NCBI RefSeq assembly: GCF_907163135.1
Contig: NZ_CAJQUA010000001.1
Coordinates: forward strand, 1,007,001 to 1,071,000
DNA: 64,000 nucleotides
Reading direction: 5' to 3'
Source: Brachymonas denitrificans
Lineage (GTDB): Bacteria > Pseudomonadota > Gammaproteobacteria > Burkholderiales > Burkholderiaceae_C
The notes under the pieces were generated by a model. That model saw only the letters and a list, made by a program, of their open reading frames with translations, was not told the DNA's origin and made no database searches. Shown piece after piece: positions 41,163-44,256 of this stretch. Position 1 is the stretch's first letter, and each line of letters starts with the position of its first letter. The position numbers and the translations under genes are program-made.

Positions 41163-41197
41163 AAAAAACCGCATGCGATCCAAGGATCTGCATGCGG
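41163..41197 (-). terminator. intrinsic terminator after the OmpA-like lipoprotein
   Basis: CCGCATGC (41169-41176) pairs with GCATGCGG (41190-41197), with an inner GATCC/GGATC stem; on the minus strand six Ts follow (plus-strand A-run 41163-41168). It ends the adhesin/OmpA transcript before rlmB. Confidence 0.85.
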
Positions 41198-41251: not shown

Positions 41252-42061
41252 TTATTGCTGGATGCCGGACACTTCCACGTCGACGCGACGGTTGGGTGCC
41301 AGGCAGGCAATCAGCTCGGTGCGGTTGCGCTGCGAGCATTGCACCACCGGCTGGCTTTCGCCCATGCCGGCGGCACGCATATTGCCGGCCGGCAGGCCCT
41401 GTGCGATCAGGTACTCACGCACAGTGTTCGCACGCAGTTGCGACAGGCGCTGGTTGTAGGCATCGCTGCCCAGGCGGTCCGTGTGACCGACGATGTTCAT
41501 GCGGGCATCCTGCCCCAGTTCCTTCAACTGCCCAGCCAATTTGTCCAGTTCGGCACGGCCTTCGGGACGCATGTCGGCAAGGCTGTAGCGATCAAACGCA
41601 AACAGGGCATCGGCCTTCAGGCTGATCACGCGGGGAGCAACCGGAACGCCACCGATAAAGCGTGCGCACTCGGAGGGCTTCCAGTGGAAGGACTGGCCCT
41701 TCATGTTGCCATCGAAGATGACCTTGTACTGGCACACCGTCACCGGGCCGTTGACCGACTCGCGGAACTTCATGACGTAGTCCCACTCGCGGGCGCCCTT
41801 CATCTCGCGGAAATGCGGGCGACCGATCAGGTAGTACAGGTCATCCTTGGTAACGCCGGGGCCGATCTTGCGCATGTTCTCCACGTTGGGGAAGATGCCT
41901 TCCGGCACGCCGGAAGTCTTGTCCAGATCAGGGAAGACCACTTCCTGCGCCTGGCCCTGGTCGTTCACTCCCTTGCTCACCGTGGAGGTGCAGCCCACCA
42001 GACCCAGTGCAGCCAGTGCCATGCCAGTGGCAACCCATTTGATGCTTGTGTGCTTTTTCAT
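41252..42061 (-). CDS. OmpA-family lipoprotein, TpgA-like partner of the trimeric autotransporter
   Basis: 269 residues. Lipobox GLVGC (Cys24), a SmpA/OmlA (BamE-like) fold (about 60-130, KIGPGVTKDDLYYLIGRPHF), then a C-terminal OmpA peptidoglycan-binding domain (about 150-265) with NIVGHTDRLGSDAYNQRLSQ and the usual Asp/Arg diaminopimelate pair (MGESQPVVQC, NRRVDVEV). The same architecture, encoded directly downstream of a trimeric autotransporter, is known for TpgA with AtaA in Acinetobacter, where it tethers the adhesin to peptidoglycan. The chosen ATG has AAGGGA 8 bases upstream; a start 15 bases earlier is less likely. Lies 78 bases after the adhesin gene. Confidence 0.85.
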   Translation of the reverse strand: MKKHTSIKWVATGMALAALGLVGCTSTVSKGVNDQGQAQEVVFPDLDKTSGVPEGIFPNVENMRKIGPGVTKDDLYYLIGRPHFREMKGAREWDYVMKFRESVNGPVTVCQYKVIFDGNMKGQSFHWKPSECARFIGGVPVAPRVISLKADALFAFDRYSLADMRPEGRAELDKLAGQLKELGQDARMNIVGHTDRLGSDAYNQRLSQLRANTVREYLIAQGLPAGNMRAAGMGESQPVVQCSQRNRTELIACLAPNRRVDVEVSGIQQ

Positions 42062-42139
42062 CACAAATCCCTTCAATGTGTTGATTCAAAGAATATCCGG
42101 CATCCTGCCCCGGCACAGGCCGGGACAGGAATCAGGCAA

Positions 42140-43252
42140 TTACCACTGGTATCCGGCACCCACGGTGGCGCCGACATGGCCCTTGTTGTTGCTGTTGACG
42201 CTGCCCTTGAGCACCCATTTGCCGTTGTCGGTAATGGTGGACACACCCAGCGCGAAACCGGTGGCGCCACGGTAGGTGGCACCACTCATGGCTACCATGC
42301 TCTTGCCGGGCAGGTAGGCCTGGGGCAGACCCGCTGCGGCCATGGCACTGGCGGTACCTGCGCGTGCTTCCTTGTCGAGGGTGTCATAGCGCTGGTTCAG
42401 GTTGTTGATGGCCTGGTTGGTCTGGTACAGCTGCGAGCCGTTGATGGCTTCCTTGCTGGTGGGAGACACCTCTCCGGGCGCAACACCGGTAATCTTGCCG
42501 CTGCCTCCATCGTTGATGGTGACCTCACCAAATTTGGGCGAATCCGCCATTTGAAGATTGATCGTTCCGGTCCGGGGATCGGTCACCGTCTTCAGGTTGG
42601 CGCCACTGTAAGTACCCGCAGTGGTAGCCTCTCCCTTGATCGTCAATGTCTGGCCGAGGTTACGGTGCACCGTGTCTCCGTCATTGCCGGCAAAGTCCAT
42701 GCCCTTCTTAGTCAAGTCATTCGTGTAGTCTTTCAGTTGCCCCAGATTGACCGCATCACTATCTTTGACACCATCCGCCAGATTGGTAATCTTGTCACCG
42801 TTCATATTGATGCCATCCCCATTAAGGATGGGGCCATTTGTGATGGTCAGGCTGTCAGCAACCAGGTCCTTTTTGGTGCCGATAGTCACCGTAGTCGTCT
42901 TTCCATCGGTGCTCGTAGTCTGGGTAATTTCCATGTTGGTGCCGGCAGTCAGATTAACCGTGTCATTCGGCATGATGGTGGACGGCCCAGTGGTAGTCTC
43001 ACCGGTCGTCGTTGTCAAATTCCAGCCGGTGCTGGTGCCATCGCCCAGCAGGGCATTAACGCAGGCTTGTTGTTCCGCAGCCGTCGCGCCTTTTATTACG
43101 CTGATTTTCAGCGACGCGTTGCCGTCCCAGGTAAATGTACATTCATCAGCAGCCATCGCTCCCGTAGGCCCGGCCAACAGCATGACGCCACAGACGATCG
43201 GAGCAATGCGCAGTACGTTTCGAGATTTCTTTGCGATAGAACGGGTTTTCAT
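42140..43252 (-). CDS. short trimeric autotransporter adhesin (YadA/Hia type Vc)
   Basis: 370 residues, small for the family (often over 1000). Signal peptide 1 to about 34 (CGVMLLAGPTGAMA), an N-terminal passenger with two cysteines (Cys38, Cys64), Thr/Gly-rich strands (about 75-150), a neck with DSDAVNLGQLK, another head-type stretch, a short stalk SKEAINGSQLYQTNQAINNL, a coiled coil, and a C-terminal YadA anchor of about 75 residues ending GAGYQW. GGAGG lies 6 bases before the ATG. The passenger half is visibly lower in GC than its neighbours, which suggests transfer or relaxed drift. Frame intact; no sign that this is a broken long gene. Confidence 0.88.
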   Translation of the reverse strand: MKTRSIAKKSRNVLRIAPIVCGVMLLAGPTGAMAADECTFTWDGNASLKISVIKGATAAEQQACVNALLGDGTSTGWNLTTTTGETTTGPSTIMPNDTVNLTAGTNMEITQTTSTDGKTTTVTIGTKKDLVADSLTITNGPILNGDGINMNGDKITNLADGVKDSDAVNLGQLKDYTNDLTKKGMDFAGNDGDTVHRNLGQTLTIKGEATTAGTYSGANLKTVTDPRTGTINLQMADSPKFGEVTINDGGSGKITGVAPGEVSPTSKEAINGSQLYQTNQAINNLNQRYDTLDKEARAGTASAMAAAGLPQAYLPGKSMVAMSGATYRGATGFALGVSTITDNGKWVLKGSVNSNNKGHVGATVGAGYQW

Positions 43253-43450: not shown

Positions 43451-44143
43451 TCAATCCTCGCAATCCCCCACGTTACCCTCATGAATCCGCAGGCGCCTGC
43501 CACAACGGCTTGCCAGCGCCTCGTCGTGCGTCACCAGCACCAGCGTGGCCCCCTGCTCCACATTCAGTTCAAGCAGCAATTCCAGAATCCTTTCCCCCGT
43601 TGCGCCATCCAGACTTCCGGTAGGCTCATCCGCCAGCAGAATTTGCGGACGCTGTACAAACGCCCGGGCCAGCGCCACACGCTGCTGCTCTCCTCCCGAC
43701 AACACCCGCGGATAGCTTTGCACCCGTGCAGCCAGCCCGACACGGTCCAGCATGGCAAGCGCCCTTTCCCTGGCATCCCGTTTTCCTGCAAGCTCCAGGG
43801 GGAGCATGGTATTTTCCAGCGCTGTCAGGTTGGGCATCAACTGGAAATTCTGAAAGACAAACCCCATGGTCTGCGCCCGCAGGGCTGCGCGTCCGTCCTC
43901 GTCCAGCGCAAACATGTCCTTTCCGCCCAGAAAAACCGTACCCGAACTTGGCGTATCCAGACCAGCCATGATGGCCAGCAGGCTGCTCTTGCCCGATCCG
44001 GATGCGCCGACAATCGCCGTCACGCTTCCACGCTCCAGTTCAAAACTGATGTTGCGCAGAATGTGCAGCGTGCCATCGGCTTGCGTCACACTCTTGGACA
44101 CATCTCTCACACTGAGAATACTATTGCCGGGAGATTGTTTCAT
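43451..44143 (-). CDS. ybbA: ABC transporter ATPase, YbbA/LolD type
   Basis: 230 residues. Walker A VGASGSGKSSLLAIMAGLD (about 50-58), Q-loop MGFVFQNFQLMP, signature LSGGEQQRVALARA, Walker B ILLADEPTGSLDG, and His switch LVTHD. YbbA ATPases pair with the large YbbP permease and sit beside tesA in many proteobacteria; tesA is divergent here as expected. However, no permease follows: the next minus-strand gene is the adhesin after 198 bases. It may use a permease encoded elsewhere. The ATG at 44143 or a GTG four codons upstream are both possible; neither has a good ribosome site. Confidence 0.88.
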   Translation of the reverse strand: MKQSPGNSILSVRDVSKSVTQADGTLHILRNISFELERGSVTAIVGASGSGKSSLLAIMAGLDTPSSGTVFLGGKDMFALDEDGRAALRAQTMGFVFQNFQLMPNLTALENTMLPLELAGKRDARERALAMLDRVGLAARVQSYPRVLSGGEQQRVALARAFVQRPQILLADEPTGSLDGATGERILELLLELNVEQGATLVLVTHDEALASRCGRRLRIHEGNVGDCED

Positions 44144-44256
44144 GACAATTTTCACTTGTATTTGCTGATATTGCGTCCATGGTAACCCTGTACCTGCCTG
44201 TGCCGTGGCTGCACAACCGCAAGGGAACTCGAAAACCTGTCGCTACTCCAAGAATC

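Follow-up and report, generated by a model that had tools for sequence, protein, structure and literature searches.

The 64,000-nucleotide window of Brachymonas DNA analysed here carries an ordinary, small example of the known AtaA-TpgA two-gene arrangement, in which the gene of a type Vc trimeric autotransporter adhesin is followed on the same strand, after a gap of exactly 78 bases, by that of a lipoprotein with a BamE-like and an OmpA domain (Table 1). The two proteins are homologous to one chain each of the AtaA-TpgA complex, the structure of which is solved (PDB 9VNJ), and it is highly probable that the locus provides a small surface adhesin together with its periplasmic clamp, expressed from one two-gene transcript. 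The host genome (Comamonadaceae; 2.75 Mb in two contigs) holds a single paired adhesin-tpgA copy, and none of the six neighbouring genes checked encodes a regulator. Both reading frames are intact and have good ribosome sites, with a strong Shine-Dalgarno motif, AAGGAGG, 5′ of the adhesin ATG, and GAAGGG 5′ of tpgA. The first-pass annotation had described a complete adhesin of 370 residues, with signal peptide and YadA anchor, a 78-base spacing and a downstream lipoprotein with SmpA/OmlA and OmpA domains; the coordinates are right, the spacing is exact in the sequence, and the translations and Pfam domain matches (far beyond chance) bear out the rest.

Table 1. Features of the adhesin-tpgA locus and its flanks (window positions)
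Feature	Position	Strand	Details
rlmB-like SpoU methylase gene, beyond the lipoprotein gene	ends 40393	minus	
Intrinsic terminator after tpgA	41163..41197	minus	CCGCATGC..GCATGCGG then TTTTTT; folding and sequence
TpgA-like lipoprotein gene	41252..42061	minus	269 aa; BamE and OmpA domains (Pfam); NF047726 (TpgA) 1.3e-41
OmpA peptidoglycan-binding domain with D195, R210	41258..41635	minus	Pfam, PDB and fold matches
BamE-like (TpgA-N) domain	41654..41956	minus	9VNJ_B match; K72-D73 aligned to TpgA K64-D65
Intercistronic hairpin	42103..42130	minus	12-bp stem, TCCTGTCCCGGC CTGT GCCGGGGCAGGA, no T tract; folding
Adhesin gene, type Vc trimeric autotransporter	42140..43252	minus	370 aa, 38.1 kDa precursor; YadA_stalk, YadA_anchor and Hia/AtaA anchor matches
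YadA membrane anchor, residues 310-370, with K317 and D342	42143..42325	minus	Pfam; aligned to AtaA K3576, D3601
Second neck, residues 244-290	42383..42523	minus	3WPA, 2YNZ matches; second YadA_stalk stretch
Head-like part (Trp-ring/GIN type), ends in first neck, residues 75-192	42677..43030	minus	3D9X match; YadA_stalk 154-192
N-terminal 40 residues of mature adhesin	43031-43150	minus	two cysteines, C38 and C64
Signal peptide, residues 1-34	43151..43252	minus	plain, without ESPR extension; cleavage after AMA inferred
ABC-transporter ATPase gene, upstream of adhesin	43451-44155	minus	

The adhesin combines a signal peptide, a passenger of neck and stalk segments, and a C-terminal anchor that lies above the Pfam cut-off (YadA_anchor, 1.2e-14, 54.5 bits against 22.7) and reaches the last of the 370 residues, a Trp. 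As Pfam gives two YadA_stalk stretches (1.5e-19), one at about residues 154-192 and one ahead of the final coil, the protein has two necks and not the one originally counted. Residues 74-202 match the crystal structure of the BadA head (3D9X, E=2.4e-7), residues 244-285 the AtaA stalk (3WPA), residues 228-292 SadA (2YNZ), and residues 247-370 Hia (1.7e-29); a single-chain AlphaFold model of the adhesin is of too low confidence (pLDDT 37) to be informative. No convincing relatives of its first 75 residues were found among the loci surveyed, and a search with the N-terminal head gave two weak Comamonadaceae matches (3e-6 and 5e-6), one of them a non-adhesin and the other within a 1,666-aa adhesin frame. 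The two cysteines of this region might form a disulphide cap. A comparison of signal peptides finds the ESPR extension in most giant adhesins and not in this one. At 38.1 kDa the protein is small but not exceptional, since the known short adhesins DsrA (30 kDa), NadA (about 43 kDa) and YadA (47 kDa), which share its size class and trimeric anchor, bracket it (PMC7247748).

In the lipoprotein, Pfam detects BamE (7.2e-13) and OmpA (5.2e-20) domains behind a lipobox, LVGC24, that predicts lipidation at Cys24. The residue at +2 is Thr and not Asp, as suits outer-membrane sorting of lipoproteins. The N-terminal domain is far closer to TpgA-N (9VNJ_B, E=3.5e-11) than to the best BamE (0.007), and both sequence and fold relate the C-terminal domain to OmpA domains. 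Residues D195 and R210 of the latter show the same 15-residue spacing as D271 and R286 of Acinetobacter baumannii OmpA, which bind DAP (PMC6572160); the Acinetobacter OmpA fragment in this alignment was an approximate query, making it a rough check, and the point is carried by the PDB matches. From these residues and matches, the domain may be expected to bind peptidoglycan. The best NCBIfam model is TpgA (NF047726), but because the score of 142.6 bits falls below the equivalog cut-off of 350 bits, we use the name ‘TpgA-like’ and not that of an NCBI equivalog. The protein otherwise resembles TpgA in being nearer to TpgA-N than to BamE, in an OmpA domain with the Asp/Arg pair, in the position of its gene directly 3′ of an adhesin gene, and in its charge pairs. 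BamE of the BAM complex shares the domain family of its N-terminus, whereas the Brachymonas lipoprotein is much closer to TpgA-N in sequence, has the additional OmpA domain and is linked to an adhesin gene. The SadA-SadB pair of Enterobacteria is likewise an adhesin and lipoprotein operon, although SadB, a trimeric lipoprotein of the inner membrane, does not resemble TpgA (PMC8151025); identity with SadB was rejected, the Brachymonas lipoprotein being a BamE and OmpA protein.

In Acinetobacter, the AtaA and TpgA genes share a transcript, and TpgA binds both AtaA and peptidoglycan (PMC8151025). The complex contains the salt bridges K3576-D65 and D3601-K64 (PMC13082670), from which report the interface residues were taken. 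All four are present in the alignment with the Brachymonas proteins, as K317 and D342 of the adhesin and K72 and D73 of the lipoprotein, and the spacing of K317 and D342 is 25 residues, as in AtaA. The locus thus has in common with AtaA-TpgA of Acinetobacter sp. Tol 5 (9VNJ) the gene order, the type Vc anchor, the BamE-like and OmpA lipoprotein and the four salt-bridge residues; in contrast, AtaA has 3,630 aa and a length of about 260 nm, whereas the Brachymonas adhesin has 370 aa, another head and no ESPR signal, and its lipoprotein scores under the NCBI TpgA cut-off. The charges recur at loci collected by a TpgA-N profile search of genomes from the Comamonadaceae (251), the Burkholderiales (399) and the class (370), the neighbourhoods of which were then read. 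Of 31 anchors that have a partner, 28 carry K/R at the first position and all 31 an acidic residue at the second; among 47 partner sequences, K/R stands at the place of the TpgA Lys in 46 and D at that of the TpgA Asp in 36. Within the Comamonadaceae, both charges are found in 8 of the 9 anchors that have a TpgA gene no more than 1.5 kb away (‘paired’) and in 3 of 15 unpaired ones, a contrast for which the Fisher test (p=0.002) overstates independence, as the paired anchors may be, and probably are, one mutually related group. On the adhesin side the contact residues are not exclusive, since the Hia anchor carries both; the acidic one is absent in the alignment from YadA, for which no periplasmic partner is reported (PMC13082670), and a second, unpaired adhesin of the same genome has VNER in place of the acidic turn. 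This second short adhesin (about 350 aa; contig C1, about 2,398,700-2,399,765, at 2.40 Mb; L139:616-1677) has a stalk of NAGEVNTDKV-like repeats and no TpgA gene near it, and just a fragment of it is seen in the relative G002 (L156). Homology to both 9VNJ chains, the retained salt-bridge residues, adjacency without an intervening terminator and the recurrence of the pairing elsewhere together argue strongly that adhesin and lipoprotein are partners in a unit of the AtaA-TpgA type, as had been proposed at first pass.

Folding of the gap revealed no terminator between the adhesin gene and tpgA, and a single transcript of both genes would end at the terminator 3′ of tpgA. The latter was found by folding and missed by a pattern scan, which returned no terminators at all; a sigma-70 scan gave one weak site, on the plus strand and no better than chance. 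The GC-rich hairpin in the 78-nt gap (z = -3.82) has counterparts of unrelated sequence at other adhesin-tpgA gaps, with a mean z of -3.8 in 15 gaps versus -1.2 in 37 control gaps (Mann-Whitney p=6e-4), the controls being same-strand gaps from the same loci with crudely called genes. None of the recurring hairpins is followed by a terminator T tract; hairpins of this kind lie in the window at 42103-42130 and, in several genera, at L065, L028, L080, L083, L085, L088, L099, L103 and L105. We treat the recurrence as a lead only, because several of the hairpins belong to the DUS-like repeats of Neisseria type, gene calling for the controls is crude, and hairpins also follow the stop codon of some unpaired adhesin genes. 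The hairpin could reduce read-through into tpgA, a point against the favoured reading, and a role as a dosage or mRNA-stability element is possible.

AtaA-TpgA has been explained as the reinforcement of a giant fibre under pull. In the survey, the adjacent, same-strand order of adhesin and tpgA recurs in Comamonadaceae, other Burkholderiales and other Gammaproteobacteria, and the upstream adhesins read completely include short ones of 370 (Brachymonas), 406, 419, 445, 475, 489, 497 and 514 (in tandem), 536 and 544 aa as well as long ones of 879, 990, 1046, 1366, 1399, 1493, 1733, 1746, 3059 and 3455 aa and one of more than 5,244 aa. A TpgA-type partner is thus often found with a short adhesin. 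The partnered adhesins range from 370 to more than 5,000 aa, with about half of the completely read ones below 550 aa, and the Brachymonas adhesin, the smallest complete one seen, is yet no outlier. The tandem adhesins (L081:4040-7998) have odd, non-repetitive heads and are followed by one full TpgA. At roughly half of the TpgA-N loci the BamE-like domain occurs alone, without OmpA, and such lipoproteins adjoin adhesins or stand alone (L034:14009-14422, L033:1249-1662, L077-L080, L087-L097). An association of short adhesins with OmpA-less TpgA was considered, but the hand count, 6 of 9 loci with short adhesins and 5 of 12 with long ones, is too small to claim it.

The frequency of OmpA-less loci, among them those of two Brachymonas relatives (G003 and G007), bears on a second reading, which we consider a real though lesser possibility: the lipoprotein might act chiefly in assembling the adhesin anchor or plugging its barrel, and not as a tether, with the OmpA domain an optional addition. 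Consistent with this, the survey sample shows no clear relation between adhesin length and the presence of OmpA, and in simulations TpgA-N alone strengthens the anchor (PMC13082670); against it, the OmpA domain is intact at the present locus with its peptidoglycan-binding pair kept, and TpgA of Acinetobacter binds peptidoglycan (PMC8151025). We suggest, very tentatively, that the core job of TpgA might be that of a clamp and barrel assembly aid at any adhesin length, with tethering optional and the adhesin:TpgA dosage set by a re-evolving stem-loop without a T tract.

The history of the locus in Brachymonas raises the question of whether the adhesin is what remains of a longer one and the pair is being lost, as it is in neighbouring species. 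In G003 the adhesin at the same site measures at least 1,181 aa and is accompanied by rlmB and a lipoprotein that has TpgA-N but no OmpA domain. Brachymonas chironomi DSM 19884 (G001), the closest named relative found, has one contig in which an IS3 element follows the ATPase gene and another in which IS3 is followed by a 5′-truncated, 229-aa adhesin C-terminus, tpgA and rlmB (L028:1-1218, L129:1-350), the two contigs presumably joining through one IS3 copy. G008 retains a deletion scar between ATPase and rlmB (L128:3200-3640), in which an ESPR start, MNKA*KSVWNEALGAWVAV, with a stop codon, is fused to the OmpA tail of tpgA. In G002, the nearest relative by rlmB (98% identical), the pair is absent and the ATPase and rlmB genes lie about 110 bases apart with nothing of it between. 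A terminator-like element similar to that of tpgA lies 5′ of rlmB in both G002 and G008. Since the relatives show a long adhesin, an IS3 truncation, a scar or an empty site, the ancestor probably had the pair here, with repeated loss or breakage since. The first-pass annotation had named, as what would count against its view, a long adhesin at this locus in relatives with the present gene a recent deletion; the long adhesin is indeed found, in G003, whereas the deletion is not borne out, in that the signal peptide is not of the ESPR type of the G008 scar and the N-terminus has no close relative in the survey. Nor would the 370-aa allele arise if a long adhesin of the ESPR type simply lost an internal in-frame segment, because the ESPR would have stayed. 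As the gene is moreover intact, from a ribosome site and signal peptide of its own through head and two necks to the anchor, and as non-ESPR short adhesins with TpgA are common in other genomes, we regard a remnant as unlikely.

It had also been argued that the adhesin is too short to reach far and hence may serve signalling, stability or short-range contact, and its small passenger and the single paired copy in the genome would suit a short, non-adhesive protein for signalling or outer-membrane stability, but we think this very improbable given known adhesins equally short or shorter (PMC7247748; DsrA, NadA and YadA are of like size), the many short TpgA-paired adhesins (406-544 aa) and the lack of regulators among the six neighbouring genes.

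On the reading favoured here, of a small adhesin with a periplasmic clamp, the former would be exported by Sec, trimerise and insert its C-terminal beta-barrel into the outer membrane, at the inner face of which the lipoprotein would be kept by its lipid at Cys24. Its BamE-like domain would dock on the periplasmic turns of the barrel via K317-D73 and D342-K72, and its OmpA domain would hold peptidoglycan via D195 and R210, the outcome being a short adhesive stub anchored in membrane and wall. The AtaA-TpgA kind of unit is known, and the small Brachymonas example is new. The contrast in contact residues between paired and unpaired anchors gives a rule by which a TpgA-type partner may be predicted from the adhesin sequence, and a 370-aa adhesin that has kept a full partner and the contact residues is a small and handy system in which to ask whether the clamp is there to bear load, to aid assembly or for both.
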